Source of the DNA: a virus
Length of the DNA stretch: 27,403 bases
Direction: 5' to 3' (one strand)
Virus record (IMG/VR): IMGVR_UViG_3300022222_000017
Location: 1 to 27,403 of that record
The translations under genes were made by a program, and so were the position numbers. Under the pieces are notes generated by a model. That model saw only the letters and a list, made by a program, of their open reading frames with translations, had not been told where the DNA came from and did not search any database. Below, one piece after another: positions 3,110-26,085 of the stretch (position 1 is the first letter of the stretch; every line of letters starts with the position of its first letter).

Positions 3110-3772
3110 TTAAAGCGCTCCTAATGATGCAAAATCAATTGGCATAGCAGACAAGTTAAAGCCGCTCATATCAAGCAACGGATTAGGTTTACCCGCCTTA
3201 GTCTCACTGTTCACCTCATCTACTAGATCCGCGATCGCCGCCTTCTCTTCAGACTTCGGATCTAATGCCTTCACCCGTTCCTCAATGAGTACCTGTAATT
3301 GATCCGCGCTCGTTCGTTCCATGATCGCCCACGCCGTTGCAAAGTCTGAAGCTAGCCCCGTACTGATTAAGGCACTCACTAGACTCGCCTGCCGTTGCTC
3401 CCATGTGACTTGACGCGCCGCTTTAGTTGCCGCCGCCTGTTCTATGGGGAACGAAATTTCTTCTAACAAACCAGGCTGAAAAGTGCCCTCGCGTTCGTAT
3501 GGCAGTACAAATTCCCTAATCATGGTGAGCGTTAGCCATTGCGGATCTACGCTGTTGAGTGACAAGGCGCGATCGCACACTTGACGAAAGAATATAGATT
3601 CTCGGTAGAGGCTGGTAAATGTTGCCAGTTCATCAGCCCCGTCTACTTCCCTTTGTATTAGGTCTAAGAGCGACCTTAATTCAACGATTTGAGCTTCAGG
3701 GCATCCATAAACCAGTCTCAGGATGCCCTGTGCATCCATGAAGGCAATACCCCGAAACTCATGTTTCCTCAT
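3110..3772 (-). CDS. Probable tail assembly chaperone
   Basis: 220 residues, mostly helical, without recognisable catalytic motifs. The call comes from position: this is the only gene between the tail-tube gene (stop 2 bp upstream) and the tape measure (start 1 bp downstream), where siphophages encode the G/GT-type chaperones that coat the tape measure before tube polymerisation. Such loci often make a second, longer product by ribosomal frameshifting. Here no slippery heptamer was seen near the 3' end and there is no second overlapping frame before the tape measure, so a single product is expected. The C-terminus is Leu/Met/Phe-rich. One copy of the iterated 11-mer lies at 3439-3449 and is read as Pro-Ile-Glu. 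Function is inferred mainly from context. Confidence 0.6.
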   Translation of the reverse strand: MRKHEFRGIAFMDAQGILRLVYGCPEAQIVELRSLLDLIQREVDGADELATFTSLYRESIFFRQVCDRALSLNSVDPQWLTLTMIREFVLPYEREGTFQPGLLEEISFPIEQAAATKAARQVTWEQRQASLVSALISTGLASDFATAWAIMERTSADQLQVLIEERVKALDPKSEEKAAIADLVDEVNSETKAGKPNPLLDMSGFNLSAMPIDFASLGAL

Positions 3773-3774
3773 GC

Positions 3775-4512
3775 TTAGGCAGCATTCCAGATAGCGTATG
3801 GTTTAGACCATCCGGCAGGCGTTAGGCACTTATAGGAAAGTTCAGCCGCTTCTACTGATCCGCTAACTCCTAAAGTTTTATCGCCTGTGCGAGTGATGCG
3901 GGGGATAAAGATCCGCTTACGCATCCGGGTTCCTTTGAGAATGCCTGAAAAACTCATCTCCCCATAGCTGCTGTCTGGATTTGTACCGCCGATCATGGGC
4001 AATGCCGTCTCAGTCTTTGTATACCAAACTGCAACGGACGCACCCACCGCGCCGCTATGGAAAATCAACTTACCCGCTGTTACTTGGAACTCATTCGCAG
4101 CAGCGGGGGCGATCGCCACTCGCTTTAAATAAACCGGGGCTGTGTCGCTTAGAATCGTTGCGACAACATCCTGATCAAGTGTGAGGGCGGCGATCGTTAC
4201 TTCAAACGGAGTAGCAGGAACGAGGACTTTTGTAATTGTGGGGACGGCGATCGATGCCACAATCGCCTCTTTTTGATCTAAAACCATCGATAGATCCAAC
4301 TTGTCTAGACTCTCTTGAGTCAAGTTTAATGTAGTGGTTTCCTTAATGATGGCACTGTCTAAAACTTGGATCGGGCCCTCATCAAACTGAAAGCCTGATG
4401 CTTCAATTTCCTCTGTAGTTGTTTCCAAATTTGCCGACACTGGCTTAAAAACGTGCAAGACCGAGTTAGCGCCGCTAGTCCGTGCGACCATCTGACCGAG
4501 AATATAAAGCAT
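3775..4512 (-). CDS. Major tail (tube) protein
   Basis: 245 residues, rich in beta-forming and Thr/Val/Ala stretches. The start at 4512 has a purine-rich site (AAGGTGAG) at good spacing. Length, composition and position (after a terminator-like gene, before the chaperone and tape measure) fit a tail-tube monomer of the lambda gpV/HK97 gp6-type beta-sandwich class. The middle (about residues 85-165) looks like an extra beta domain, and the C-terminal part includes a basic loop (KGTRMRKRIF, about residue 193). No sheath gene follows, which favours a non-contractile tail. I did not recognise a specific family from sequence alone, so the assignment is by context and general character. Confidence 0.7.
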   Translation of the reverse strand: MLYILGQMVARTSGANSVLHVFKPVSANLETTTEEIEASGFQFDEGPIQVLDSAIIKETTTLNLTQESLDKLDLSMVLDQKEAIVASIAVPTITKVLVPATPFEVTIAALTLDQDVVATILSDTAPVYLKRVAIAPAAANEFQVTAGKLIFHSGAVGASVAVWYTKTETALPMIGGTNPDSSYGEMSFSGILKGTRMRKRIFIPRITRTGDKTLGVSGSVEAAELSYKCLTPAGWSKPYAIWNAA

Positions 4513-4603
4513 TGCTCACCTTGAGTCTGTTAGGGTTGCCGCCTCAAGTTTAACTGAGTCGGCTGCTTTAGATTACCCAAGCCCAGCAATTCACCCAACG
4601 CTG

Positions 4604-5107
4604 TCAACCTTCCCACTGATCAAGCCTTATTTGTTCAATCACAAAACTGTATTTTCCCAACACGTACCCCACAAAAGCGCTATCACCGATCGCCTGCCCT
4701 TGCGAATTGTCTCGGCTTGGGTAGCCCATCCGTTCTATGGGGTGAATCCCGCCGCAAGCTTTATTCAAAGCAACGCCCCGATAAGTGCCCGTAATGCCGT
4801 TCTCTCTTAGTTTCTTCATGGCAGTAGCGAGAGCCGCGCCCCAATCTTTGAGCAGTCTGTAGCCTTGCACAGCGTTGTTATGGGCAACGATTAGGCGCAC
4901 TTCCGCGATCGCCTCTACCGTTCGCATATTGCCCGTGATGATCTCGTTAGAGCTAACAATTCTTACGATCCCTTTAGGGCTATCGGTTGGCTCGGTTGCC
5001 CATTCTGGGTAGTTCATGGGGAAACCTAGCTGTGTGGCGAGATAGGCATTAATCGCCTCTTCATGGGCAGCTTCTACGGATTGCGAAGGCGGGGGAATAA
5101 TCGGCAT
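4604..5107 (-). CDS. Probable tail terminator/completion protein
   Basis: 167 residues from the ATG at 5107. A longer frame begins at 5182, but its first 25 residues (Pro/Gln-rich) would overlap the divergent plus-strand gene, so the internal Met is preferred. The protein has an alpha/beta pattern: a first helix with EEAINAYLATQLGF, an RIV strand, a VRLIVAHNN strand followed by a long helix (LLKDWGAALATAMKKL), and a closing strand that ends FVIEQIRLDQWEG. This matches the size and layout of the lambda gpU/HK97 gp10 class of tail terminators, which cap the tube and join it to the head. It lies directly upstream of the tube gene. Its start is only 17 bp from the start of the opposite-strand gene at 5125, so it must be transcribed through that gene in antisense. 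Confidence 0.5.
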   Translation of the reverse strand: MPIIPPPSQSVEAAHEEAINAYLATQLGFPMNYPEWATEPTDSPKGIVRIVSSNEIITGNMRTVEAIAEVRLIVAHNNAVQGYRLLKDWGAALATAMKKLRENGITGTYRGVALNKACGGIHPIERMGYPSRDNSQGQAIGDSAFVGYVLGKYSFVIEQIRLDQWEG

Positions 5108-5124
5108 ACAAAAGGGGGTTTGTT

Positions 5125-5403
5125 GTGGACTTTGGACAGGCGATCGCTTTGGCGGGTGGAGTAGGTGGACTGATTGCAACACTATGGAAGGTGTTCAATG
5201 TGATCCGTCAACTGGAGAGGCAAATAGATAAGATTGCCAACGAGCAAGAAGTGCAAGAATTGACGGTTAACGGTACCCGCGAACGGTTGGAACATACCCG
5301 CGATCGCCTGCTGTTAGAGCTAGACATAACACGCGATCGGCTTAACTGTGTTGAGAATTGGCTAAATAAGCACACAGAATTCGAGTCGCACCATAAAAGA
5401 TAG
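5125..5403 (+). CDS. Small membrane-anchored coiled-coil protein (moron candidate)
   Basis: 92 residues on the plus strand, opposite to the late genes. It starts at a GTG with an AGGGGG ribosome site 7 bp upstream. The N-terminus is a short glycine-rich hydrophobic segment (about residues 4-26, IALAGGVGGLIATLW), followed by a long charged helix with coiled-coil character (ERQIDKIANEQEV, then RERLEHTRDRLLLELDITRD). A rho-independent terminator lies 43 bp after the stop in the same direction, so this is a self-contained transcription unit inside the minus-strand late operon. The shape (one N-terminal TM, coiled-coil body) resembles small lysis accessory proteins such as XhlA-like or Rz-like products, and also superinfection-exclusion proteins. 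I cannot choose between these. Confidence 0.72.
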   Translation: MDFGQAIALAGGVGGLIATLWKVFNVIRQLERQIDKIANEQEVQELTVNGTRERLEHTRDRLLLELDITRDRLNCVENWLNKHTEFESHHKR

Positions 5404-5446
5404 GGTATTTTTGTGGGATAACGAGATATGCAGACGCACTGCATTA

Positions 5447-5475
5447 GGCGGCTATCGCTCTAGCCGTCTTTTCTT
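5447..5475 (+). terminator. Rho-independent terminator for the gene at 5125
   Basis: An 8-bp stem, GGCGGCTA at 5447-5454 paired with TAGCCGTC at 5461-5468 with one G-U pair, encloses a 6-base loop and is followed by TTTTCTT. There is no T-run on the other strand, so it acts on plus-strand transcripts. Confidence 0.82.
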
Positions 5476-5483
5476 CGCCTTTG

Positions 5484-5696
5484 TTAATTCTGTTTGATGC
5501 GGGCGATCGCCTCTGCTTCAGTAGTGAAGTAGAAATTCTCCTCTCCTATCACTGCTACCCATTCGCCATCCAACTCGGTAACAAAGCGATCGCTGTCGAG
5601 CTGATTGAATGCATCTGCGTCAGCCTGCATGAATGCATTAATCTTCTGAAGTTCTGATGGGCTGAATATATCCAAGTCGGTTAGGGTTATGGTCAT
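5484..5696 (-). CDS. Small acidic protein, unknown function
   Basis: 70 residues from the ATG at 5696, which has an AAGGA site about 9 bp upstream. A longer frame to 5735 has no ribosome site and would cross a terminator hairpin, so it is rejected. The protein is acidic, with a helical first half (SPSELQKINAFMQADADAF) and a second half that looks like a small beta-hairpin-plus-helix unit (GEWVAVIGEENFYFTTEAE, ending AIARIKQN). That second half resembles the short W-x-A-V domain of small bacterial antitoxin-like or stand-alone proteins, but this is a weak resemblance. It converges with the plus-strand gene at 5125. No function is assigned. Confidence 0.65.
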   Translation of the reverse strand: MTITLTDLDIFSPSELQKINAFMQADADAFNQLDSDRFVTELDGEWVAVIGEENFYFTTEAEAIARIKQN

Positions 5697-5733
5697 CTGA
5701 AAATCCTTTGAATTGCGTATGTACGTACTCACC

Positions 5734-5757
5734 AAAAAACCACCTCGGGGGTGGTTT
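5734..5757 (-). terminator. Rho-independent terminator of the small minus-strand unit
   Basis: Read on the minus strand, an 8-bp perfect stem (AAACCACC / GGTGGTTT, 5757-5737) with a 5-base loop runs directly into six T residues (5739-5734). It stops transcripts from the -10 box at 5965-5960 about 200 nt after initiation, before the gene at 5696. It could act as an attenuator for that gene. Confidence 0.8.
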
Positions 5758-5813
5758 CGGTTCCCATCGATCTCATGGGAGGAGATGACATATTGTTGCG
5801 GTATCCGATGTCA

Positions 5814-5948
5814 TTACCCGTCATCTTTTAGGCGGATGTACCTGACGACTTCCCCCGGCTCGTTCACGCACCGTATGAGGACGACTGGCGGAAGTGGTGC
5901 ATATCCTTTCGAGATCTCAACACCAATGGGAATTTCCGTCCCCTTCAC
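5814..5948 (-). CDS. Candidate 44-residue small protein
   Basis: A GTG-initiated frame of 44 codons with ordinary codon use. It contains the segments IPIGVEISKGYAPLPP and VVRYIRLKDDG, a Pro-rich turn followed by a plausible beta hairpin. It ends TAATGA and is followed by two hairpins, the second a clear terminator. A TATAAT box ends only 12 bp before the GTG, so the transcript would be almost leaderless; the only Shine-Dalgarno-like bases (GAG) touch the GTG. The opposite strand also has an open frame over this stretch, but that one has no credible start signals. The alternative is a non-coding RNA of about 200 nt. I recognise no family. Confidence 0.4.
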   Translation of the reverse strand: MKGTEIPIGVEISKGYAPLPPVVLIRCVNEPGEVVRYIRLKDDG

Positions 5949-5959
5949 CTCATATGCCT

Positions 5960-5965
5960 ATTATA
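5960..5965 (-). promoter_or_regulatory. -10 box of the small minus-strand unit
   Basis: A perfect TATAAT on the minus strand sits next to ATACGGTAT, which repeats the arrangement at the plus-strand promoter near 6288. No convincing -35 hexamer lies 16-18 bp upstream, so an activator or a non-standard sigma factor may be needed. Confidence 0.5.
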
Positions 5966-6295
5966 TACCGTATGGATAGGAATAAAGTGTCATTTTGTGC
6001 GTACTACAGTGTAGTTGTGCCAGTTTGTTCTTATCGGATGGCGTTTATTTATCCCTCCAGACTTATATCTGTACGGTTATCCGACCAAAAATGTATAACC
6101 CAGCCTATTGACAGGTACTTTCATAAATTTACCGTAAAGAATTGTACCAATAAACAGTAGTACAAAGCCCTTTTTCTTTACGGTAAGTTTATGAAGTTCA
6201 AATAAACTACAGCCGGAATTATAAAGAGTTAAAGTGTCACACTACCGCATACTACAAGGGGCTATGGGCTTGCATTCTCTCTAATCTATACGGTA
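5966..6295. promoter_or_regulatory. Cluster of TACCGTA-type operator candidates
   Basis: The 7-mer TACCGTA or its complement TACGGTA occurs at 5966-5972, 6130-6136, 6179-6185 and 6289-6295. Six-base forms lie at 6072-6077 and, inside the 44-codon frame, at 5870-5875. The two outermost full copies touch the -10 boxes of opposing promoters, and the two central ones lie in the arms of a long inverted repeat. AAAGTGTCA is also repeated (5984-5992 and 6231-6239). The stretch 5949-6269 has no other gene. It is AT-rich compared with its surroundings. Confidence 0.55.
6120..6195. repeat. Long inverted repeat (22-bp arms)
   Basis: The left arm at 6120-6141 and the right arm at 6174-6195 match at 21 of 22 positions; in RNA the single mismatch is a U-G pair. 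A second, inner inverted pair (TTGTAC at 6142-6147, GTACAA at 6160-6165) follows directly. Each arm carries one TACCGTA site. It may be a cruciform or looping operator, or a mini-element. There is no flanking T-run, so it is not a terminator. Confidence 0.8.
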
Positions 6296-6299
6296 TAAT
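6270..6299 (+). promoter_or_regulatory. Promoter of the gene at 6326
   Basis: TTGCAT (6270-6275) is followed after 18 bp by a perfect TATAAT (6294-6299). Transcription would start about 20 bp before the ATG at 6326. An ATACGGTAT operator candidate (6288-6296) overlaps the -10 box, so the gene is probably repressed through that site. Confidence 0.65.
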
Positions 6300-6325
6300 T
6301 TCATGATCTAACTATTGAGGATGCC

Positions 6326-6541
6326 ATGCCGACGCGAAAAATAAACCCTAAGAGCCTTCAGAACCTTGAGAAGCGAGGGCGATCGCCGGACTGGGATGAG
6401 CCGAAAGAGCGGCGTTATTTATCCGTTACCGATCTGGGCTTTGATGGGTCGTTGCGAATTGCGCGATCGCTGGGATGCGTTTCAGTGAGTGATCTACTGG
6501 AAAAGATTGGGAGAGGCGCGATCGTTGCTGCAAAAACTTAA
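6326..6541 (+). CDS. Small basic protein, possible regulator (moron)
   Basis: 71 residues, plus strand. The ATG has GAGG 5 bp upstream and its own promoter. The N-terminus is basic and polar (TRKINPKSLQNLEKRGRSP), the middle has RRYLSVTDLGFDGSLRIARSLG, and the end has SVSDLLEKIGRGAIV. Short cyanobacterial proteins with this LSVT-G-S-LLE-IGRG pattern are, in my recollection, common and uncharacterised; the second half could be a small helical DNA-binding fold. It converges with the neck gene, and the two stop codons share the bases TTAA (6538-6541). As the only nearby gene under the TACCGTA sites with a good promoter, it is a candidate autoregulator. That is inference. Confidence 0.72.
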   Translation: MPTRKINPKSLQNLEKRGRSPDWDEPKERRYLSVTDLGFDGSLRIARSLGCVSVSDLLEKIGRGAIVAAKT

Positions 6542-7014
6542 AGCTTGATTCTACGCAGCCGATCAGCCAGCCGCTTACTAGCCTGGTCAATGATGCCGCC
6601 CTTTTGAGCAGAGCCGTCTGGTTTGATGCCTGCAAAATTCTTTTGATCTCTAAATCGTTGTGTCCCATTCCGCGCGATCGCCCTCGCCAAAAGGAACGGA
6701 GGAATATCGTACTTCGCAGCCCACGCCGCCAGATCACTGCCCTTACCCCATGGCGGCATCTTGCCAGCCTTACGCCCTCTAATCCTGAATAGGGCGTTGT
6801 CTGCTGAGTTAGTGATCAGTAGGGATAGGTCGCTTTTTATCTGCACATCCCACCCGCGCTTTAAATCACCCGTCGCACCTTCAGGGGATGCCTCTTGTAA
6901 ATCTGAACCCAACTCAAGGGCAGTATCTTCGATCGCCCCTCTCACTTGACCTCTAAAACCTTGCTCTAACTGAGTCGCTTTAATGTCGGGAACCTTGAGA
7001 GAAATGTTAAACAT
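6538..7014 (-). CDS. gp10-like neck / tail completion protein
   Basis: 158 residues, basic. An N-terminal helix (GFRGQVRGAIEDTALELGSDL) is followed by SPEGATGDLKRGW, a strand (VQIKSDLSLLITNSADNALF), and a C-terminal section with DLAAWAAKYDIPPFLLARAIARNG and a basic helix (RLADRLRRIKL). The order 'helix, S-P-x-x-T-G-x-L-x-x-x-W, strand, asymmetric DLAAW and A-R-A-I-x-x-x-G-T' is typical of the HK97 gp10 family of head-tail joining proteins. It overlaps the upstream gene by 8 bp, which indicates coupling. It is the last minus-strand gene before the moron island. Confidence 0.72.
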   Translation of the reverse strand: MFNISLKVPDIKATQLEQGFRGQVRGAIEDTALELGSDLQEASPEGATGDLKRGWDVQIKSDLSLLITNSADNALFRIRGRKAGKMPPWGKGSDLAAWAAKYDIPPFLLARAIARNGTQRFRDQKNFAGIKPDGSAQKGGIIDQASKRLADRLRRIKL

Positions 7015-7375
7015 ATCTTTGTTCCTCTAGGTAGGCAAGCCAGTAAAGCCCCTGAGACGTACCCTCACGAATGGGAGGGAGTAATCTCATGGGCGATCGC
7101 GTTGCGCCCTTATCGAAACTAATTCCCCACGGCTTATCTGGCAAAATTAACGCAGCATTGATTCCAAGCTTAACGATCCTCACTTCGTAAACTAGACCTA
7201 ACACCCTGTCAGTAGCGATCGCCAGTTGATCAGCTTTGATGGGGTCTACCTGCCGTATGCGCGGGTTCGTGCCGTTCGCCTGCCTTAATAGCACGTTGTC
7301 GATATAAAGCTGCCACGGACGGCGCTCTCTAGCGTCCTCGGCAAGTAAGAGTTCAGCATTGCTAATCGGCATCAT
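7007..7375 (-). CDS. Head-tail connector region protein, unknown
   Basis: 122 residues beginning MMPISNAELLLAEDARE, followed by beta-rich sequence (WQLYIDNVLL, YEVRIVKLGINAALIL). Its position next to the gp10-like gene suggests a head-closure or stopper role, or a small structural protein. The start codon has no Shine-Dalgarno; instead the iterated 11-mer in the form CCCCATAGAAC directly precedes the ATG. A second ATG follows at once. It is probably translated by reinitiation from the gene upstream. No domain is recognised. Confidence 0.7.
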   Translation of the reverse strand: MMPISNAELLLAEDARERRPWQLYIDNVLLRQANGTNPRIRQVDPIKADQLAIATDRVLGLVYEVRIVKLGINAALILPDKPWGISFDKGATRSPMRLLPPIREGTSQGLYWLAYLEEQRYV

Positions 7376-7386
7376 GTTCTATGGGG
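7376..7386 (+). repeat. Iterated 11-mer GTTCTATGGGG
   Basis: Exact copy in the short gap between two minus-strand genes, directly abutting the start codon at 7375. See the finding on this word. Confidence 0.85.
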
Positions 7387-7395
7387 TGATTGTAA

Positions 7396-7641
7396 CTAGG
7401 CAGGTTTTTGATCAACGAAACCCGATGATCCTAACGTTCCCAACCCAAGCACGGGTGATTGAACAGGGGCAGAATTAGACAAGAAGCGCCCATATTCCAC
7501 TCCTCCGTCTGATGTTTCTAGTTTTCTGTTGCCAGTGCGATCGCTCCTCGATTTATACAAAGCAATGGCGATCGGGTTTGTGCCCTTACTGTTGAGTGTG
7601 GCGAGGTATCGAGAGTAGTTTTTGATTCTGGTTTCAAGCAT
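7396..7641 (-). CDS. Small structural-block protein, unknown
   Basis: 81 residues. The start overlaps the stop of the 463-aa gene as TAATG at 7641. The N-terminus is basic (LETRIKNYSRYL) with a helix-strand beginning (NPIAIALYKSRSDRTG). The C-terminus is Gly/Ser/Pro-rich (GLGTLGSSGFVDQKPA). It is the last gene of the coupled fibre and appendage block. Its size and coupling suggest a small virion or assembly protein acting with the 463-aa product; this is context only. Confidence 0.65.
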   Translation of the reverse strand: MLETRIKNYSRYLATLNSKGTNPIAIALYKSRSDRTGNRKLETSDGGVEYGRFLSNSAPVQSPVLGLGTLGSSGFVDQKPA

Positions 7642-9730: not shown

Positions 9731-9736
9731 AGAGTC

Positions 9737-14638: not shown

Positions 14639-15607
14639 TTAAACCTCAATAAGAACAAATCCTGAACCTTGAGTGCAACCGCTGCCGGGTGTGATGCTTA
14701 AGTTAACCTGAGTCTCGGTTGTGTAAGAGTGCCCTGGATTAGTTTCGTACTCAGCTATCTCGAATGGGTCATTCTGAATTGCGGTAATTAGGCGATCGGG
14801 CGTTCCCGCATCACCTAACCTCAGCATTGACCCCACGCCATTGAACGGTACTTGGATCACAATCGTGGCAGTGAATACCGTTGAATTGATTGGGAGCAGG
14901 GCGATCGCTTTAGGTGAAGCATCCCCAAAACTAAAGGGCACGGTGATAATATGCGCCGCGCCTGTATCTGTAGGCTCTGAGTCAGAGTCGATAAGCGGCT
15001 GATAGCTGCCGGGTTTGTACCGGGCAAAGGGAGATAGGAAGGCTTCAGGCAAGATACCCGAACCCGCGCCCGTATTACCATAGTTAACGCTGTACTCTTT
15101 ATCTACCGAGCGGCTGGCAATGCCACTGAAGAGATCAGACTGGCTATAGTCCAAGGCAGCCCCTAACGCTGCTTTGAGCCGTCGCAATTCTGGAGTATCC
15201 ACCAATGGATCAACGCCGGAAAAGTATCTTACTCGGATCTCAGTAATCGGGTAAGATAACCCGCCCTTGATCTCGATTCGACCGGAGCGATCGCACAAAT
15301 ATTCAGCCCGTCGAATGGGCTTCCATTCACCACGTTTCATCTTGCGATAAGTGCGACTTAGCCCACCGCCAAAACGCCCTTCGACAATGGGAGCGGGGCT
15401 TAAAACGATGGGCGTATAGAGCAACTGGCAAGCGTCAAACGACTCAGAGAGCCGCTTGGTTTCGCTATACTGCCGACGCTCTAGCGGTCGCTTTATCGTC
15501 GCTTCTACCAAACCTTGCACTGACGCGATCGCCATATCCAACGCCGCCCCGGTTAACGAGACGGAGGGGAAGTAGAGAGTTTTGTCAGCAGCGGTTATCA
15601 GTGCCAT
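14639..15607 (-). CDS. Head-tail connector (gp6-like) fused to a fibre-type beta domain
   Basis: 322 residues. Residues 1-200 have the features of the helical head-tail adaptor (HK97 gp6/SPP1 gp15 class): an N-terminal helix with LDMAIASVQGLVEATI, an R-P-L-E-R-R segment, strands, then LRRLKAALGAALDYSQ. Residues about 217-322 are a separate beta domain resembling the C-terminus of the adjacent 228-aa protein. Adaptors are normally 90-200 residues, so the extra domain makes this one long. The start lacks a Shine-Dalgarno and follows the upstream stop as TAG-AAC-ATG inside the iterated 11-mer, which suggests reinitiation. Confidence 0.65.
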   Translation of the reverse strand: MALITAADKTLYFPSVSLTGAALDMAIASVQGLVEATIKRPLERRQYSETKRLSESFDACQLLYTPIVLSPAPIVEGRFGGGLSRTYRKMKRGEWKPIRRAEYLCDRSGRIEIKGGLSYPITEIRVRYFSGVDPLVDTPELRRLKAALGAALDYSQSDLFSGIASRSVDKEYSVNYGNTGAGSGILPEAFLSPFARYKPGSYQPLIDSDSEPTDTGAAHIITVPFSFGDASPKAIALLPINSTVFTATIVIQVPFNGVGSMLRLGDAGTPDRLITAIQNDPFEIAEYETNPGHSYTTETQVNLSITPGSGCTQGSGFVLIEV

Positions 15608-15618
15608 GTTCTATGGGG
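15608..15618 (+). repeat. Iterated 11-mer GTTCTATGGGG
   Basis: Exact copy covering the stop of the 81-aa gene (TAG at 15613-15611) and abutting the connector ATG at 15607. Confidence 0.85.
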
Positions 15619-15856
15619 TGATATTGCGAGGGCATCCAACGAGGGCGATCGGGCAGATCGGCTGACCAAAAAGCCCAGAGAGGATTTTATGATCACAGTT
15701 AGGGCAATAGTTACCCGCGATCGCCTGTAATTCCGGCGTATGTTCTATGGGAGAATCACCGCTTAATTCTGCTAGTACCGTGTCGGCATCCTCAAGGGGT
15801 GGGCTGTCGGCATCCTCAATAGGTGGGATGGGTGGTAGGGGCTTGTTTCTAGTCAT
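15611..15856 (-). CDS. Small acidic protein with a Cys cluster
   Basis: 81 residues; TAGGAA lies about 4 bp before the ATG. The first 45 residues are Pro/Asp/Glu-rich (IPPIEDADSPPLEDAD) and probably disordered. The C-terminus carries four Cys in the pattern CPNC, then a CPIALVGC segment, which could bind zinc as a small ribbon. It lies between capsid and connector. Possible roles are capsid decoration or assembly; no family is recognised. A ten-base copy of the iterated word at 15742-15751 is read as Ser-Pro-Ile-Glu-His. Confidence 0.7.
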   Translation of the reverse strand: MTRNKPLPPIPPIEDADSPPLEDADTVLAELSGDSPIEHTPELQAIAGNYCPNCDHKILSGLFGQPICPIALVGCPRNITP

Positions 15857-17608: not shown

Positions 17609-17657
17609 GCGGCTTCCGAGTTAATGAACAATACGGATATATATTACCCGCGCAGTC

Positions 17658-17742: not shown

Positions 17743-17941
17743 GTGAGTTTTAACTATGCGCTCGGTGTTCAAACCTTTGATGGCAACTGCATAACAAGCG
17801 GCAAACCTTGACTCCCTTTCAGTTTGCAAAGCACGAAAACAGTGACCAACTCGAAAGATAGGTGTATTCAGGGGAGCGCTTCGATACCAGTATCATATCA
17901 CTTTGATCTGGAAATTCCGTGCCCGCAGTCAAAAGCGATCG

Positions 17942-17952
17942 CCCCATAGAAC
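17942..17952 (-). repeat. Iterated 11-mer GTTCTATGGGG
   Basis: Exact copy on the minus strand, 2 bp after the stop of the protease candidate and fused to a HIP1 octamer. Confidence 0.85.
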
Positions 17953-17954
17953 AA

Positions 17955-18704
17955 TCAACCCCTCAGAACCTCAGCACCGGGTAGGTTGCCGCTAACTACT
18001 AGCGATACTTCTATCCCTGTATGGAACCCTTGCCTCACGTAATAAGGCGCAAAGTTCATATCTGGGTCATTGCCATAAAGATGCAAAAGCATGGGGTGGG
18101 GTGGAATGTGTGGGCAGTTGGCATCCTCAAAACTTAGCTCACACAATGGACACCCATACTCCCCTGAAGTCAGCCCCCCCGTACTAATTCCCCGCGCTCT
18201 GGATTGCGCGATCGCATCTACAGCAGCGCTTTCAATAGGAAAAGCCGCCATGATAATCAACCCTATAAACCCGTCCTTTGCCACAATTTGACGGTTGATA
18301 TCAAAGAAGTCGGCAGCATTAAGGATATGAGTAGGGGCATCCATCGATCGCAATAGGAAGGCATCGTAAATCAGCCCTATAGAATCTTGAACGTCGTCCC
18401 AATTGTGATTCAGTTGCGCTGGCTTGCCAGGGAATTGCCGTGCCATTGCTTCAAGGCTATCGGTATCCCACACGCCGTTAGAATAGCTCATCAGGTTATG
18501 CGATGCCATGATGGGCACTGATACAAAGCGATCGGCGGTGTAGTTTATGCCCTTTGGTGCATGAGCCTGAACCTTTGCCAGTTGATCAGCGTTCGGGGTT
18601 CCCATGCCGGGAACTTGAGCGATCGCCTGTGCATAGCTAAGGCGTGTGAATGTAGCGTTGGTAAATACCATCTGTTCTATGGGGCGAATGGGAAGCGATT
18701 TCAT
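17955..18704 (-). CDS. Prohead maturation protease candidate with a Cys/His cluster
   Basis: 249 residues. Features fitting a capsid-maturation serine protease are His100 in AQLNHNWDDVQDSIGLIYDA, Ser174 in RARGISTGG, and a late strand GIEVSLVVSG that resembles the E-V-S-L-V strand common near the end of such proteases. Between them is an unusual metal-site candidate: Cys185 and Cys188 (CPLC) with Cys197 and His199 (CPH). It precedes the capsid gene, where these proteases are usually found, and the capsid has a removable-looking N-terminal region. A start-proximal copy of the 11-mer is read as Arg-Pro-Ile-Glu-Gln. The protease call is inference from motifs and position. Confidence 0.55.
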   Translation of the reverse strand: MKSLPIRPIEQMVFTNATFTRLSYAQAIAQVPGMGTPNADQLAKVQAHAPKGINYTADRFVSVPIMASHNLMSYSNGVWDTDSLEAMARQFPGKPAQLNHNWDDVQDSIGLIYDAFLLRSMDAPTHILNAADFFDINRQIVAKDGFIGLIIMAAFPIESAAVDAIAQSRARGISTGGLTSGEYGCPLCELSFEDANCPHIPPHPMLLHLYGNDPDMNFAPYYVRQGFHTGIEVSLVVSGNLPGAEVLRG

Positions 18705-18716
18705 ACCAGAATACCC

Positions 18717-19616
18717 TTAACTGAAAAATGCCAATTGTTCCAACCGTGCCAGCTTACCCAAGTCTGACCTAATGCCACTAGAACGATCGCACACCCAAAG
18801 CACTTCAGTACGAGCGCGATCGCCCATCTCTTCCTCTGTCCTCATCTTGCCTCTGTCCACCCCGACCCGACCCTTACCACTGGCAGTACAAAGCGTAGAC
18901 ACTTCGATTCTTTGCTGCGCTGATTGGGGTTCTATCGCTTGTGGGTAGCAACTGAGGACGTAAGACGATTTGCAATTATCCAGGGCATCACAAAGGTTTT
19001 CCCAGTCGTCGGTAGTGTAGCCAGCATAATGCCCTTGGTTTGTGCTGATATATGGCGGATCGACAAAATAAAGTGTATGGGCTGAATTCCAGCGCTCTAT
19101 ACATCGCAAGGCATCCTCACTGGAAATATGAACATCTGCCAATCTATCAAGGGCAGCTTCGAGCGATCGCTTTTTGTTGTTCCAGAGGGCGGCTGAGTTC
19201 TTACCAATAACGCTACTACCCCACCCTGCAAGAAGTTTATTCGCAAAACTCATCTGCACTTGCACATAGAGCGCCCATGCAATCGTTAGATCGTCATGCT
19301 CCACAGAAGCCTTGAGGATGTCCTTTGCCTTGCTGTAGTCGCTTTGACTGTACAGAGTTGCATCAATCAACCGCAGCAAATCATCCTTCTGTAACTTGGC
19401 AACACGGTAAAAAGTGATCACCCAATCATTTGTATCATTGATGATTTCTCGATAGTCGTCATTATTACCCACCGATCGCCTTCCCTTGGCAAACAGCACA
19501 GCAGCCCCACCGCAAAACGGTTCACAGAAAACCGTATGAGGGATTTCGTTGAGCAAAGGGATAATGTGTTGGGTCAACTTTTGTTTGCCACCGTAATACG
19601 AAAAGGCGCTTTTCAT
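18717..19616 (-). CDS. D12-class DNA N6-adenine methyltransferase
   Basis: 299 residues. The family motifs are clear: FSYYGGKQKL (residues 5-14), the AdoMet loop CEPFCGGAAVLF (31-42), an NDTND segment (60-64) and the catalytic DPPY (186-189), in the order of alpha-group (Dam-like) enzymes. It transfers a methyl group from S-adenosylmethionine to N6 of adenine. Specificity cannot be read directly; GATC is plausible because HIP1 (GCGATCGC) fills the window and contains it. It overlaps the minor head gene by 4 bp (ATGA) and sits 12 bp before the protease gene, an odd place for a methylase inside a head operon. The role is probably protection from host restriction or regulation. Confidence 0.93.
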   Translation of the reverse strand: MKSAFSYYGGKQKLTQHIIPLLNEIPHTVFCEPFCGGAAVLFAKGRRSVGNNDDYREIINDTNDWVITFYRVAKLQKDDLLRLIDATLYSQSDYSKAKDILKASVEHDDLTIAWALYVQVQMSFANKLLAGWGSSVIGKNSAALWNNKKRSLEAALDRLADVHISSEDALRCIERWNSAHTLYFVDPPYISTNQGHYAGYTTDDWENLCDALDNCKSSYVLSCYPQAIEPQSAQQRIEVSTLCTASGKGRVGVDRGKMRTEEEMGDRARTEVLWVCDRSSGIRSDLGKLARLEQLAFFS

Positions 19617-20320
19617 TGTTTCAAAGTAGTGGTTAATCCTTGCCTCAAGCCATGATCAGTCCATCCCCACGATCGCAGCATTGAATCGGTAGGCTTAGTC
19701 AGTTCTTTGCTAAAACTTTTAGAGCAACGGCAACGCGATCGGCATCGACAGCGATCGCCTGGATTCGGCAGCGTACCCAACGGCATCCACCCTTGACCCT
19801 GGTATCGGATGCAGTCGGCACAGGATTCAGATGAATGGAGCGATCGCTTTTCCCAAATGTAGCCAGCCGCTCTATGCCCTTCTAATGCCCCAAGTTCCCG
19901 ACTGCCGTGCAATGCATCCGCATACATTGACAGGCGCGATCGGATTTGATCGGGTGATAACTTACCTTGCAGGATCTCTTGAGAGAAGTTCCGAAGGTAT
20001 TGGTACTCCTTCTTAAGCTCCGCGCCCATGATGCCATAATCACGCTGGGTCAACTGCTTAACGCCGCCCTTGCCTAGTGCGTAGCTGTTTATGTGTGCTT
20101 CCTTCAGTTGCGTTGCTACAGCCCTCTCAAAGGTCGAAACATTGATCGCCTTACTCAGCAGCAAATCGGCTAGGTCGCTTATCTTATCTTTGCTTCGACC
20201 AATGTACTTTTCTGTCAGTGCTTCAACCTGTGCTTTGCTGGCAAACTGCCCAGCGCTGGGCCCAGATGTAAATCGGTAACGTTGGCTTGTGGCATTCCAT
20301 GAGAACTCGTTAACTGGCAT
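19613..20320 (-). CDS. Minor head protein, Mu F / SPP1 gp7 family
   Basis: 235 residues. The helical N-terminal two thirds include RLSMYADALHGSRELGALEGHR. The family signature follows: WEKRSLHSSESCADCIRYQG with Cys167 and Cys170, then LPNPGDRCRCRSRCRC with Cys191 and Cys193, a zinc-binding arrangement seen in head morphogenesis proteins. Members bind the portal and help load or eject DNA. Two further Cys (197, 199) extend the cluster beyond the usual four. It is located two short genes after the portal and overlaps the methyltransferase start by 4 bp and the two-TM gene by 11 bp. Confidence 0.82.
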   Translation of the reverse strand: MPVNEFSWNATSQRYRFTSGPSAGQFASKAQVEALTEKYIGRSKDKISDLADLLLSKAINVSTFERAVATQLKEAHINSYALGKGGVKQLTQRDYGIMGAELKKEYQYLRNFSQEILQGKLSPDQIRSRLSMYADALHGSRELGALEGHRAAGYIWEKRSLHSSESCADCIRYQGQGWMPLGTLPNPGDRCRCRSRCRCSKSFSKELTKPTDSMLRSWGWTDHGLRQGLTTTLKQ

Positions 20321-21931: not shown

Positions 21932-21991
21932 GATGATGGTTTGAGATTACCTGAATTTTACCCGTCGCTCAAAACTAAGATCTAAAATTCT

Positions 21992-22264
21992 ATGACTCAG
22001 TACAGAATTGCAACGAATGGCGATCGCTATCGCATTGAAAAGAGAGGGTTCCTAGGACGTTGGGAAAGAGTCTCATCTGAGAGAGTGCTGTGTCCATCTG
22101 GGTCTGAAGCTATCCTGCCAGCACACTACATGGGTTACATGAGTGAGACAAACAGTTTGTGGGATCATCGAGATCTAAACCAGACACAAGACGTTCTTAG
22201 GCTAGTAATTGAGTTTGATACCTGGACAAAACATCAGAGATCTAGGAAATGGCGATCGCTCTAA
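21992..22264 (+). CDS. Small protein between portal and TerL (moron candidate)
   Basis: 90 residues on the plus strand, against the operon. It starts TQYRIATNGDRYRIEKRGF, is rich in Arg, Trp and Tyr (LGRWERVSSERVL, FDTWTKHQRSRKWRSL), and is basic at both ends. Its stop shares CTAA (22261-22264) with the TerL stop, the same fitting of stop codons as at 6538-6541. The ribosome site is weak. The sequence suggests a small nucleic-acid- or protein-binding cargo gene. No family is recognised. Confidence 0.62.
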   Translation: MTQYRIATNGDRYRIEKRGFLGRWERVSSERVLCPSGSEAILPAHYMGYMSETNSLWDHRDLNQTQDVLRLVIEFDTWTKHQRSRKWRSL

Positions 22265-23817
22265 CGCCGCCTAGTCGAAGCGTGGGAAGTGTACCGCAGT
22301 GGAACAGGGCGTGGGTTGAATAAATAAGCCAACATATCCGCATAGTCAGGCGAACCGATGCCCCGCGATCGCATTTCATCTTTACTCTCTATCAACATCT
22401 TGCCAGTGCTGGCGAACTTACGCTTAGGGCTAGAGATTTGAGCGATCAAAGTGGCGTGGCTAGGAATGCTGATCAACTCATCTAGGGGGTGTTCCGCAAT
22501 CCCATTTACAAAGTCATAAGTCTTTTTGAATCGCTCATGCAAACATCCCCACCATTCAGCACGGGCATTGTAGAACTTTTCCTTGCTCGTTTTGCCCTCA
22601 CCATCCCACTTTCGATCGCTTGGAGAGGATGAGCCGTGCAGTGCTGTAAATCTGAATTCAATATCAGGGATACTCGCCAGCGTTCCTGCTACACCCGCGC
22701 CCACCCCATCCGCATCAAAGAATAAATGAGTTAAGCCATTAGCCCTCATCAGCTCCACTACCTTAAAGCTCGTTTGAGTGGTATCAATGCCCTGCCAGCT
22801 ATCCATAAAGGTAACGTTTGAGCCTTGCCTGATACCAAACACGTTGCTATTTTTCCCAGTAGTCGCTACGTCTAAAGCAGCAATGCGATCGCCCATCGTC
22901 GGCAGTTCTAACCCGATCGCAGCGTCCACCCATTCAGCCGGAATATAGATACCCTCGACTGATGCCCCGTAGTCAATATCTACTTCAGATGCGATCGTCA
23001 CTGGGTCATACTTCACCTTCATTCCCGCATACCAATCGGCATCTTTGCGCGGGTCTTCTTTCCAGTGCATTCTAAAGATCCATTCCTTCGGGTAGTTCAT
23101 CCGCTTCTGATAAAAGAAGTTCATCCCGTTAACCGAGCTAGTGTAGAAAACTACCTCAGTGTTATTTGACAACGCAGCATCTACCTTTTGAGGGCGTTCT
23201 ATAAATGCTGCTTCATCCAAATCGTAGAGCGTCGATCGCCCACCCCGTCCGATATTATCGCCGCCCTCACCTGTGATAGATGAGCCGTTGCTAGGGTTAA
23301 GCAGCTTACAAAAGTTATCGTGCTTACTCCAATCGAAGTCTAGTGGTAGCATCCATTTAGGCAGATACCGCAGCAAGATCCTAATCTTCTCAAAAATACT
23401 ATCTGGGTCACCAATGCGATCAACCAAATCTTCTTTACGACTACCGAACGCGCCCTTGTAGCCGTCCTCATATAGCCAACAGTGAACCTGGGAACAAACG
23501 TTTAACCAACTGATTCCCATATCACGCGATTTTTCGATCAGACCGTTCTCTCCCATAGAACGCCTTTTCGATCGCCACTTCAAATATTCAGCTTGCTTAG
23601 GGAATAGCAGCATTGGCAACATAGAGGGCGATCGCCTGGGGTCGAATGTCCATACCCAATCATTGATCCAAGTGTTGATGTCGTGGCGGCAATGTTCCAT
23701 GACAAGCGCTTGCAACCTCACGTCAGCATTGCAAAGGATTAACCTATCCCAACGCTTCTCTATAACGACGGGATAGTTCGGCTGGTGAGGCTGTGGTGAT
23801 GCGATCGCGCTCTTCAT
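22261..23817 (-). CDS. Terminase large subunit
   Basis: 518 residues. The ATPase has a variant Walker A, EKSRDMGISW (95-104), which lacks the usual G-K, a known variant in some TerL groups (K-S-R-x-M-G-x-S), and a Walker B LYDLDEAAF (197-205). The RNase-H-like nuclease has Asp316 in AALDVATTG, Asp368/370 in HLFFDADGVGAG and Asp491/494 in SPDYADMLAY. It pumps DNA into the prohead through the portal and cuts it. The start at 23817 overlaps the TerS gene by 74 bp, longer than usual; a later GTG start is possible. Confidence 0.93.
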   Translation of the reverse strand: MKSAIASPQPHQPNYPVVIEKRWDRLILCNADVRLQALVMEHCRHDINTWINDWVWTFDPRRSPSMLPMLLFPKQAEYLKWRSKRRSMGENGLIEKSRDMGISWLNVCSQVHCWLYEDGYKGAFGSRKEDLVDRIGDPDSIFEKIRILLRYLPKWMLPLDFDWSKHDNFCKLLNPSNGSSITGEGGDNIGRGGRSTLYDLDEAAFIERPQKVDAALSNNTEVVFYTSSVNGMNFFYQKRMNYPKEWIFRMHWKEDPRKDADWYAGMKVKYDPVTIASEVDIDYGASVEGIYIPAEWVDAAIGLELPTMGDRIAALDVATTGKNSNVFGIRQGSNVTFMDSWQGIDTTQTSFKVVELMRANGLTHLFFDADGVGAGVAGTLASIPDIEFRFTALHGSSSPSDRKWDGEGKTSKEKFYNARAEWWGCLHERFKKTYDFVNGIAEHPLDELISIPSHATLIAQISSPKRKFASTGKMLIESKDEMRSRGIGSPDYADMLAYLFNPRPVPLRYTSHASTRRR

Positions 23818-24238
23818 TAATGCTGCTCTCTTCTATTTCATCAAGGATATGTTTAGGCAGTTCATATCGCATAGATACCATTCTGAGCAATCCTAGGGAC
23901 GCTTGCACCCTTACCCCGCCGCTCTCGTTTGAGTCCTTGGCAATGTTTCGTAGGGTTCGACGTGCTAGGGCATAGTCTGAGATGCCGCCTGACGTGCCAA
24001 TCGGACTGACGTTGGATGGGGGGGGCAAAACCTCGACAGTTGCTCTATGAGACGCTTGAGGTTCCCCCAATCCTTTCTCTAACTGTGGCTCTAAAGCTTT
24101 AACGGCTCGAAACCATGTGTAAATAGTTTTATAAGAAATATCTGGATAGGCGCGGGAAAGTTCAGATGCAGTCTTACCCGATCGCAACTGCTCACAAACC
24201 TCTTCTTTGTATTCCTGCCATTGCGATATACGCGACAT
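23744..24238 (-). CDS. Terminase small subunit
   Basis: 164 residues. An N-terminal helix-turn-helix (about residues 8-45, VCEQLRSGKTASELSRAYPD with a following YKTIYTWF) would bind the packaging site. A Pro-rich linker (LPPPSNVSPIGTSG) leads to a helical part (RRTLRNIAKDSNESG, ASLGLLRMV) that resembles the oligomerisation region of small terminases. It lies directly upstream of TerL and is overlapped by it. AGGAA directly adjoins the ATG, which is unusually close. Identification is by fold pattern and position. Confidence 0.8.
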   Translation of the reverse strand: MSRISQWQEYKEEVCEQLRSGKTASELSRAYPDISYKTIYTWFRAVKALEPQLEKGLGEPQASHRATVEVLPPPSNVSPIGTSGGISDYALARRTLRNIAKDSNESGGVRVQASLGLLRMVSMRYELPKHILDEIEESSINEERDRITTASPAELSRRYREALG

Positions 24239-24277
24239 TTCCTAGGCTTCAGAACTTTCCTAATGTTTCCCAATTTA

Positions 24278-24288
24278 CCCCATAGAAC
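24278..24288 (-). repeat. Iterated 11-mer GTTCTATGGGG
   Basis: Exact copy on the minus strand in the 66-bp gap between the zinc-protein gene and TerS. Confidence 0.85.
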
Positions 24289-24304
24289 AAAGACCGATCG
24301 CCCT

Positions 24305-24835
24305 TCACCAAAAAGCGATCGCGCTGTGGGTTTCTTTGGGTCGGTGTCTAGTGCAATAGCCCCCCGATCGCCTGGTTAGCTCATCGCATTGCTGCCCTTT
24401 GCGATCGCCTGTTTTCCAAATATGTTGACACTGCCTTAGTGCACTGTTCTTCCAAGTCTTAGGGCTTGACTGTTTTGGTGCCCATTCTACAAACTCAACT
24501 AGGCAATGGGCGATCGCCTCAAATGGCTCTTCTTGATGCTGTGAGGATAACATGACGTTGGACTTGACGGGCGCAGAGCTATACACCCAAGAAACGGAGA
24601 TATGAGGGTTCTGGTTCTGGCAAGGTAGCCAGTTCGGTATGATAGCTCGTAGCGCCTGATTTTCTCCATTCCAGGCTTCAGAGACAATGGCGATCGTCAC
24701 TGGTAGCCCAATGATGTCGGCATAGGGCGATCGCTCCACCCCATACGCCAGCGTTAGACGCTGGGCTTGTGTGTTTCTGTAGCGGGCTGGCACTGCGATC
24801 GGGGGGATGGGTGCCAGCCAGAGGATGCCTGTCAT
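24305..24835 (-). CDS. 2H-phosphoesterase-like domain with C-terminal Cys/His zinc motif
   Basis: 176 residues. The first 125 contain two landmarks placed as in 2H phosphoesterases (LigT and tRNA-ligase CPDase fold): QRLTLAYGV at 25-33 and PHISVS at 77-82, with VKSNVMLS after the second. In active members both are H-x-[ST]-h; here the first His is replaced by Arg26, so activity may be lost or altered. Residues 136-164 form a compact zinc site, C-x-H, K-G-x-x-C and G-G-Y-C-x-R-H (Cys136, Cys150, Cys161, His164). It overlaps the upstream gene by 4 bp (ATGA). The role may be RNA repair or binding, or a terminase accessory. The domain call is pattern-based. Confidence 0.55.
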   Translation of the reverse strand: MTGILWLAPIPPIAVPARYRNTQAQRLTLAYGVERSPYADIIGLPVTIAIVSEAWNGENQALRAIIPNWLPCQNQNPHISVSWVYSSAPVKSNVMLSSQHQEEPFEAIAHCLVEFVEWAPKQSSPKTWKNSALRQCQHIWKTGDRKGQQCDELTRRSGGYCTRHRPKETHSAIAFW

Positions 24836-25173
24836 GCTAGAGACACCGCCGATTCAGGGATGGGCAAGCTCGACCGTTCAATCCGGCGAATAAAATACCA
24901 TGGGTCTTGACCCTCGGAAACTATCCAGTTAGCCCCAAGAATCCATTCACGCAATTCGCCTTCCGAGACAGCGATCGTCATCAATGTGATGCCGTCGTCA
25001 ATCCTAATTAGGGTCGCTTCTTCAGGGGAAGCGGACACGAATTCTTCTCCACTTCCGTACTGCCCACCAGTGGACGTAAATTCCGAAAGGTTGCCGTCCC
25101 CTTTCGAGAAGTAACCCTTCGGGTTCCACTGGGTCACTTCCTCTATTTTCCCTAGCTTTACAGATACTTTCAT
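24832..25173 (-). CDS. Unknown protein, first gene of the packaging operon
   Basis: 113 residues. The start lies about 45 bp after the promoter at 25222-25250; no strong Shine-Dalgarno is seen. The N-terminus is beta-like (MKVSVKLGKIEEVTQW), followed by a Gly/Ser-rich loop (STGGQYGSGEEFVS) and an acidic alternation of strands (LIRIDDGITLMTIAV, EWILGANWIV). It has no Cys. It is coupled to the 2H-like gene by a 4-bp ATGA overlap, so the two may work together. No family is recognised. Confidence 0.72.
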   Translation of the reverse strand: MKVSVKLGKIEEVTQWNPKGYFSKGDGNLSEFTSTGGQYGSGEEFVSASPEEATLIRIDDGITLMTIAVSEGELREWILGANWIVSEGQDPWYFIRRIERSSLPIPESAVSLA

Positions 25174-25221
25174 TTGATTCGCAGCAGAGTGGTAATGGTT
25201 TTCTCTGCTCTCTTAAATACC

Positions 25222-25243
25222 AATCTACTACCAATCTACTACC
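25222..25243. repeat. Two perfect 11-bp tandem repeats over the promoter
   Basis: AATCTACTACC occurs twice without a gap. The 11-bp period puts both copies on the same face of the helix, and they cover the promoter spacer and -10. They are candidate sites for the regulator encoded just upstream (25283-25864). Confidence 0.75.
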
Positions 25244-25250
25244 ATGTCAA
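25222..25250 (-). promoter_or_regulatory. Packaging-operon promoter
   Basis: On the minus strand a perfect TTGACA (25250-25245) is followed after 17 bp by TAGATT (25227-25222). The spacer and -10 box are made of the 11-bp tandem repeat. This is the best sigma70-like promoter seen on the minus strand. Confidence 0.75.
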
Positions 25251-25257
25251 GCGATCG

Positions 25258-25268
25258 CCCCATAGAAC
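25258..25268 (-). repeat. Iterated 11-mer GTTCTATGGGG
   Basis: Exact copy joined to a HIP1 octamer, 8 bp upstream of the TTGACA box of the packaging promoter. Confidence 0.85.
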
Positions 25269-25282
25269 AGAACGCGATCGCC

Positions 25283-25864
25283 CTAATCGTTTCGACTCCA
25301 ATCTCTAGCCACATTCCGAGGGTTTGCAACCTTCCAAGCCGTCTCTCTACCATTTCTACCCACGCTCTCAAATCCAAAGCCGTGCCGGATGAATACTGCC
25401 CCCGTAGGATTGACCCCAATCAACGCCCTAACCTGACTTGTGCTGAGTAGCCAGCCATGAGCCGCAGCCCTCTCCAATGCCTCAAGGTTTGCCAGTGGAT
25501 CAACGGGTACAGCTATGGCAAGGGCGATCGCCTGCACTAACTCTATAAGCACAGGCGTACTAATATCATCAGTCGTCGGATTGTCGGACGATAGTTCTAC
25601 GGTGTGTTGATACGGGGAAAAATTGGCGATCGTCGCTCCCTTTATTTTGAGATGAGTATTCAGCCCATCTAGGGTGTCAATGTCTTCTCTGGAGTAGACA
25701 GGGTGTTTATCTGGGTTGATTGGAAAGCCGCGATCGCGCAGCTTCTTGATGCGATCGAAAACGGTGGAGCGGGTCACGGAGTAACGAGACTCTAGCCCTT
25801 CGAGGGTTAAGCCTGCGATCGTGGCGGTGGGGGTGTGCGTGATGTAGGCGGGTTCTGTTTCCAT
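25283..25864 (-). CDS. HTH transcription regulator
   Basis: 193 residues. The N-terminal part has a helix-turn-helix (LEGLESRYSVTRSTVFDRIK, about residues 20-41) and a wing-like YSREDIDTLDGLNTHLKIKG, which parallels LYNREDLQTLIRLISWLSRG in the MerR-type protein at 26944. The middle (about 85-140) is hydrophobic and helical. The C-terminus has a second HTH-like stretch (STSQVRALIGV, then FESVGRNGRETAWKVAN). It ends just before the packaging promoter, which carries tandem 11-bp sites, so a role as late activator or repressor is plausible. The start lacks a Shine-Dalgarno and follows the upstream stop as TAG-AAC-ATG. Confidence 0.7.
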   Translation of the reverse strand: METEPAYITHTPTATIAGLTLEGLESRYSVTRSTVFDRIKKLRDRGFPINPDKHPVYSREDIDTLDGLNTHLKIKGATIANFSPYQHTVELSSDNPTTDDISTPVLIELVQAIALAIAVPVDPLANLEALERAAAHGWLLSTSQVRALIGVNPTGAVFIRHGFGFESVGRNGRETAWKVANPRNVARDWSRND

Positions 25865-25875
25865 GTTCTATGGGG
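25865..25875 (+). repeat. Iterated 11-mer GTTCTATGGGG
   Basis: Exact copy holding the stop of the 68-aa gene and abutting the ATG at 25864. Confidence 0.85.
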
Positions 25876-26074
25876 TGGGGTTGAGGGATTCAATAGGAAA
25901 AATACGATCTAACTCTTGCAGCTCATCTGCGGTCATCTTCTGATATTCACCCTTCAGAACAAGCAGCCACATCTCCCCAAAGGTCACGCCCCTTTTATCC
26001 GCCAAATATTTAACCCGCTCTTTATAGATCCAAATCCGATAGGCAGTGGCAGACATCTTGGCTTCTTTTTCCAT
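25868..26074 (-). CDS. Small protein, unknown
   Basis: 68 residues (or 62 if the internal Met at 26056 is used). Charged helices dominate (YRIWIYKERVKYLADKRG, GEYQKMTADELQELDRIF). The C-terminus LNPTP is identical to that of the next gene upstream (26078-26401), because both end within the same junction sequence containing the iterated 11-mer. The start is preceded by TAG-AAC rather than a Shine-Dalgarno. No family is recognised. Confidence 0.65.
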   Translation of the reverse strand: MEKEAKMSATAYRIWIYKERVKYLADKRGVTFGEMWLLVLKGEYQKMTADELQELDRIFPIESLNPTP

Positions 26075-26085
26075 GTTCTATGGGG
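26075..26085 (+). repeat. Iterated 11-mer GTTCTATGGGG
   Basis: Exact copy holding the stop of the 107-aa gene and abutting the ATG at 26074. The bases following it match those at 25876-25887 as well, so junction and flank are repeated. Confidence 0.85.

Follow-up and report, generated by a model that had tools for sequence, protein, structure and literature searches.

A dispersed, asymmetric 11-mer of a virus fragment, its cousins on cyanobacterial phages and plasmids, and a candidate reader protein

Introduction

Cluster A mycobacteriophages such as L5 and TipsytheTRex carry stoperators, many dispersed asymmetric sites of ~13 bp located in short intergenic gaps (PMC9283540, PMC6550527), and cluster K mycobacteriophages carry Start-Associated Sequences, an asymmetric repeat located a few bases upstream of the ATG (PMC3203893). 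The Nostoc cyanophages A-1 and N-1 have asymmetric intergenic motifs that were suggested to be promoters or stoperators (PMC4916379). Here we describe GTTCTATGGGG, an exact 11-mer present in ten copies in a 27.4-kb IMG/VR virus fragment (IMGVR_UViG_3300022222_000017, positions 1 to 27,403; the whole stretch is referred to as ‘the window’) that comes from a phage of cyanobacteria and encodes terminase, portal, MuF-like, capsid and tape-measure proteins, almost all on the minus strand. We propose that GTTCTATGGGG is probably a dispersed operator that regulates the element and is bound by a phage-encoded two-domain DNA-binding protein, most likely the product of 25283-25864.

Like the stoperators, the window word is dispersed, asymmetric and exact, and seven of its ten copies touch noncoding DNA (10% background, P=1e-5); the likeness extends to a cognate protein with two DNA-binding domains (a candidate in the present case) and to a site that varies with the repressor. 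However, stoperators are predominantly in one orientation relative to transcription while the orientation of the window word is mixed, the candidate reader is MerR-like and was not matched to L5-type immunity repressors, and cousins of the word are also found on plasmids. As with the Start-Associated Sequences, GTTCTATGGGG occurs upstream of ATG codons, sometimes containing the stop of the upstream gene; yet only four of the ten copies are at starts as compared to virtually all, the AGGAG core is lacking, and there are inverted intergenic copies.

Results

The word and its placement in the window

The ten exact copies and the two ten-base partials that had been listed from the sequence alone were all found, on the same strands, as were the two copies (17942 and 25258) fused to HIP1. 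The number of copies expected in both strands is ~0.013 under a uniform model, close to the ~0.01 given earlier, and 0.009–0.039 under Markov models of orders 1–4. With 12 copies versus 0.085 expected, the ten-base core CCCATAGAAC leads the over-represented 10-mers of the window once HIP1 is set aside. The word is sharp-ended: no copy with one internal mismatch is present in the window, and the sole one-mismatch copies are the two partials, both of which differ at the terminal G.

The sequence-only reading had described a second highly iterated, non-palindromic word distinct from HIP1, and this part of it stands. Both GTTCTATGGGG and HIP1 (GCGATCGC, PMC4390886; 69 sites in the window) are short exact words present at high density in the same DNA. 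The comparison breaks down in two respects, symmetry and occurrence throughout host genomes: HIP1 is palindromic, while GTTCTATGGGG is asymmetric, element-specific and not genome-wide in the sampled hosts. The association with start codons and intergenic gaps, the cousin words and the candidate reader protein described below go beyond that reading.

Origin of all copies from one gene-junction cassette, named earlier, together with counts near expectation elsewhere, as the outcome that would speak against an iterated word, is rejected. Longer matches among the copies amount to a 38-bp pair around 25865 and 26075 and 21 bp, comprising the word and HIP1, that 17942 and 25258 have in common. Since the flanks of the remaining copies are unrelated to one another, duplication of a single cassette does not account for the copies and is seen in the 25865/26075 pair alone. 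Rfam and tRNA searches returned no match.

Gene calls, both in the window and in the viral contig G404 discussed below, are based on open reading frames (ORFs). Four of the ten copies abut an ATG as CCCCATAGAAC-ATG (P=1e-7), CCCCATAGAAC being the gene-sense form of the word, and three of these four contain the TAG stop of the upstream gene. The copy at 7376..7386 (+) is intergenic and adjoins the ATG of 7007-7375 (-) as CACCCCATAGAAC-ATG, and that at 15608..15618 (+) contains the TAG stop of 15611-15856 (-) and adjoins the ATG of 14639-15607 (-). The other two lie on either side of a small ORF of ~68 aa (25868..26074, -) that ends in ...LNPTP: the copy at 25865..25875 (+) contains the TAG stop of this ORF and adjoins the ATG of the candidate reader gene (25283..25864, -), and the copy at 26075..26085 (+) adjoins the ATG of the small ORF and contains the stop of 26078-26476 (-). 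Two further copies are located at most 2 bases from an in-frame ATG.

Three intergenic copies are inverted. The HIP1-fused copy at 17942..17952 (-) lies directly past the stop of 17955-18704 (-), oriented opposite to most copies; the copy at 24278..24288 (-), also of opposite orientation, occupies the gap between 24305-24835 (-) and 23744-24238 (-); and the second HIP1-fused copy, at 25258..25268 (-), lies 15 bp beyond the stop codon of the gene for the candidate reader. The three remaining copies are within ORFs, in the frame P-I-E: at 3439..3449 (+) inside ORF 3110-3772 (-), with the gene sense CCC ATA GAA C; at 4732..4742 (+) inside ORF 4604-5182 (-), with the gene sense CACCCCATAGAACGGATG; and at 18674..18684 (+), as CCCCATAGAACAGATG near the 5' end of ORF 17955-18704 (-), a position that is upstream of the start if the second ATG of this ORF is used. 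The first ten bases of the word also occur at 15742..15751 (+), inside ORF 15611-15856 (-), and at 23552..23561 (-), inside the terminase large subunit gene.

A 4.7-kb relative (L011; 93–99% DNA identity) keeps both exact copies present in its stretch, those at 24278 and 25258, as well as the partial at 23552. L011 does not have the two-gene block 24305-25173, the junction being at the word-HIP1 site 25249 and the HIP1 site 24315-24322, nor the small plus-strand ORF 21992-22264 (window 21965-22256).

The word in host genomes

Host and phage origins had been proposed to be told apart by counts, and the counts favour the element. GTTCTATGGGG is at background in 386 cyanobacterial genomes, where it reaches at most 12 copies in 4.7 Mb and, in the next genome, 11 in 4.1 Mb, as compared to 10 in the 27 kb of the window. 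In the two highest-count genomes, which we inspected, the copies are unrelated coding-like sequences (G143) and the ends of one repeated element (G243). The HIP1-fused form of the word gave nine matches among 84,980 species genomes, each of them single and at chance level, with no multi-copy genome. In the sampled genomes, GTTCTATGGGG is not a host word like HIP1, and for these genomes the two surveys lead us to reject a host-wide word.

Within IMG/VR, the 16-mer CACCCCATAGAACATG gave ten unrelated single matches only. Relatives identified by major capsid protein (L012, L013 and Cr-LKS4) do not have GTTCTATGGGG, a portal search across the cyanobacterial genomes gave no match, and searches of open-access papers with the words themselves returned chance string matches only.

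Cousin words on other viral loci

Two routes led to similar words on other viral loci. Starting from the protein 25283-25864, we reached L079, which encodes its one distant relative found in IMG/VR and has no other detectable homology to the window; here, TTCTGGGGGC is present 11 times in 20 kb. Starting from words alone, unsupervised counts over 109 viral loci yielded two HIP1-rich loci with GTTCTA-words, L133/G404 and L177. In G404, a 117-kb viral contig, all 28 copies of GTTCTAGGGG are located at 59–113 kb and none in the first 58.9 kb, and the word-bearing half encodes a full-length, 193-aa homologue of 25283-25864 (phmmer E=2e-13). Three of these copies form CCCCTAGAAC-ATG junctions, the other 25 not abutting a start. 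L177 carries GTTCTAGTAG seven times in 13 kb and has portal and tail homology with the window. The repeated word of another locus, L153, was rejected as a cousin, being a low-complexity coding repeat.

Other repeated words are carried by Cr-LKS4 and by Leptolyngbya phage Lbo402-yong5 (L077), where AAGTGGACAT is present in 13 copies in 41 kb (0.1 expected).

Cousin words on plasmids

Furthermore, homologues of the window protein led to plasmids. A 45,216-bp plasmid matching Synechocystis PCC 7338 encodes a homologue and carries 16 copies of TTACTAGGGG, while the whole 3.7-Mb chromosome of this strain has 12 (354/Mb versus 3/Mb). On pSYSM of Synechocystis PCC 6803 the same TTACTAGGGG is the top word (30 copies versus 0.3 expected); 20 of the 30 are intergenic (P=3e-8), most of these being tens to hundreds of bases away from starts and on either strand, and three are at the homologue SGL_RS19675, of which pSYSM has a paralogue near 96,000. 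Plasmids of the same host that do not encode the family protein served as controls: TTACTAGGGG is absent from pSYSG (whole) and occurs once in pSYSA (first 50 kb). Two other plasmid readers have words of their own that pile up at the reader gene, ACTGGACAA in the case of pSYLC of PCC 6714 (P=1e-4) and ACTGGTAGA in the case of a Planktothrix plasmid (P=2e-7).

Three small HNH endonuclease genes of pSYSM (L285-L287; 30281-30574, 66782-67072 and 95256-95549) are each located at or beside a TTACTAGGGG copy. The 4-Mb draft genome G101 has 57 TTACTARGGG sites, >20 of them on the 66-kb contig C41 (L280-L282), where TTACTAGGGG is concentrated and which is probably an unassembled plasmid.

The candidate reader protein family

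The product of 25283-25864 is a 193-aa protein with a MerR-like helix-turn-helix N-terminus, Pfam MerR_1 being detected there in a homologue, and a conserved C-terminal domain. Conservation within the family is highest over the C-terminal ~60 residues, which are unnamed in Pfam and NCBIfam; a three-sequence model of the protein yielded this domain only, in a helix-helix-three strands arrangement with a predicted local distance difference test (pLDDT) score of ~80. Compared with PDB sequences, the family profile gives weak matches only: GlnR (7tec, E=0.016), RacA (5i41, E=0.07) and a sigma-54 fragment. The family, which includes the proteins of the window, G404, L079, pSYSM and the PCC 7338 plasmid, was found in 40 of the 386 cyanobacterial genomes, often on small replicons, and on named plasmids, where its members are annotated as hypothetical or MerR family.

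Most elements with cousin words encode a relative of 25283-25864, and word copies are found close to the reader gene: three of ten in the window (P=0.006) and three of 30 on pSYSM (P=0.002) lie within 250 bp of it; for pSYLC and the Planktothrix plasmid, the pile-up noted above was scored over the same distance. Repeated local 10-mers scoring at least 14 were present at 11 of 30 homologue loci versus four of 60 control pieces (P=6.5e-4). The similarity of the words follows the reader clades. The readers of pSYSM, the PCC 7338 plasmid and G101 are 92–94% identical and have TTACTAGGGG in common, and those of G001, G223 and G019, which are 45–60% identical, have words sharing GTCCT(G/C)AG. The survey was sequential, and part of the supporting data had already served to form the hypothesis. 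Out of sample, the cleanest points come from G404 (from word to protein), the Synechocystis plasmids (from protein to word) and the same-host plasmid controls.

Analogous words in Nostoc phages A-1 and N-1

The motifs of the two Nostoc phages are, by our recount, TGATTCCGGGG, present 78 times in N-1, and TGACTCCGGGG, present 75 times in A-1, two 11-mers that are one base apart. Both are strand-balanced, at background in 88 cyanobacterial genomes and enriched between genes (41 intergenic copies versus 12 expected in N-1; 32 versus 11 in A-1). Words of this type are also present in YongM, YongM2, Elbi and Dfl-JY23. Like the window word, they are phage-specific, exact, asymmetric ~11-mers that start with CCCC, are found in both orientations and are at background in hosts. 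They differ in being another word, in belonging to myovirus-type phages, in being about three times denser and not start-bound, and in the 25283-25864 family, a hidden Markov model of which finds no member in A-1 or N-1. GTTCTATGGGG itself is absent from both.

In alignable DNA, 17 of 26 N-1 words have the A-1 word at the same site, with the same T-to-C change, while the general T-to-C rate is 10%. Such a site-for-site switch would be expected if the specificity of a trans-acting reader had shifted.

A candidate reader of these motifs is the LuxR/GerE-type helix-turn-helix protein encoded by N-1 19288-19674, which is 34% identical to its A-1 counterpart, many other genes being 60–90% identical (N-1, L069/L071; A-1, L070/L072). 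A second iterated sequence, AGAGTGACTC/AGAGTCACTC, is common to A-1, YongM, YongM2, Elbi and Dfl-JY23 (L070, L073-L076).

Other window genes

A D12-class adenine methyltransferase is encoded in the head gene cluster (18717-19616, -) of this phage, whose HIP1 sites contain GATC. A small MerR_1 protein, a second possible regulator, is encoded at 26944-27225 (+), divergent to the structural operon.

Discussion

The statistics of the word, its placement, its absence from the sampled hosts, the cousin words and their association with one protein family are observed. As near-identical words are present on other cyanobacterial phages and plasmids together with a related protein, the word is probably the landing site of that protein and would act as a genome-wide switch, of which we came across no account in the open-access papers searched. 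According to our model, the 193-aa protein would bind GTTCTATGGGG, in gene sense mostly CCCCATAGAAC, as an asymmetric site, its two conserved ends (the MerR-like helix-turn-helix and the small C-terminal domain) possibly reading the two half-sites GTTCTA and TGGGG. Its sites would be the start/stop junctions, the gaps that punctuate the structural operon and the surroundings of its own gene, where binding would most likely hold down or gate transcription of the element as well as autoregulate the reader. This would parallel the way in which the stoperators of cluster A mycobacteriophages work, or dispersed operators on plasmids, though with a protein unrelated to that of the mycobacteriophages. 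Members of the same family, each with its own cousin word, would act on other phages and plasmids, including pSYSM of PCC 6803. We infer both binding and repression from the patterns in the DNA.

Several observations weigh against this model. The orientation of GTTCTATGGGG is mixed, 7:3 overall and 4:3 among the intergenic copies, unlike that of L5 stoperators. The association of word and protein is imperfect: several homologue loci have no iterated word; an iterated word is likewise lacking from the first half of G404, where a truncated homologue is located at the contig start; within 250 bp of the homologue there is no word in L079 and only one in G404; and pSYSX (first 50 kb) has 14 words with a weak partial reader match. 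The G404 words are only weakly intergenic (P=0.06), and in L177 several GTTCTAGTAG copies can be read in frame as the codons L-L-E. The readers of different elements with cousin words are mostly only 25–35% identical to one another. The model of the candidate reader is confident only at residues 124-184, and a fold search with it matched no solved fold. Finally, the true reader could be another DNA-binding protein encoded in the rest of the phage beyond the window.

The main rivals of a regulatory operator read by 25283-25864 are DNA organisation by the same protein and a different reader, each of which we regard as unlikely. The word could serve as the site of a trans-acting factor for segregation, condensation, packaging or self-marking of the DNA, comparable to the sites of RacA, ParB/Noc or MatP, rather than for gene control. 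The MerR-like N-terminal domain and the weak profile matches to RacA and GlnR are consistent with such a role, as are the copies inside genes, the occurrence of copies on both strands and the even, strand-balanced spread of the analogous Nostoc phage words. However, the preference of the window copies for gaps and start codons and the clustering at the reader gene, along with the intergenic preference on pSYSM, are better explained by regulation.

The second rival keeps the element-specific operator and assigns it to another protein, from the unsampled part of the phage, so that 25283-25864 would accompany the word only incidentally. The window is only part of the phage genome, A-1 and N-1 have analogous words and no member of the family, and the pSYSX words are accompanied by a partial homologue only. 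Against this, cousin words were reached from the protein alone (L079 and the Synechocystis plasmids), the word alone subsequently led to the protein (G404), and in several elements the words cluster at the 25283-family gene.

Two further explanations we consider very improbable. A translation-initiation element in the mRNA just upstream of the ATG, similar to the cluster K Start-Associated Sequences, would rationalise the four CCCCATAGAAC-ATG junctions of the window and the three CCCCTAGAAC-ATG junctions of G404, but six of the ten window copies and 25 of the 28 G404 copies are away from starts, three window copies are inverted, the word is no Shine-Dalgarno complement, and the intergenic pSYSM words are mostly remote from starts. 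A feature of an unsequenced cyanobacterial host (an uptake sequence, a Chi-like site or a second HIP), mirrored by this HIP1-rich phage as HIP1 is, would fit the exactness and lack of strict orientation that resemble uptake sequences, but is at odds with the background or chance-level counts of the word in the sampled genomes, the concentration of the cousin words on phages and plasmids (PCC 7338 being the clearest count) and the word-free first 58.9 kb of G404.

Returning to the operator model, it offers a pairing of word and reader that can be tested for a phage repeat that had lacked an explanation. For the uncharacterised protein SGL_RS19675, it also predicts which site would be bound and which targets would be affected on pSYSM, a plasmid carried by a cyanobacterium that has been studied intensively. 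A broader and more tentative extension, which we consider possible if doubtful, is that one two-domain protein family on cyanobacterial phages and plasmids uses exchangeable half-sites (GTTCTA or TTACTA plus TGGGG, GGGG, GTAG or AGGG), that each element is blanketed with its own word, and that readers can silence or mark other elements. In that case, resident plasmids such as pSYSM, as well as prophages, would use word identity to control the phages and plasmids that arrive. If the operator model is true, a global control resembling that of stoperators evolved around an unrelated protein and is found in phages and plasmids alike; which elements can coexist, and which exclude each other, could then be predictable from the identity of their words.

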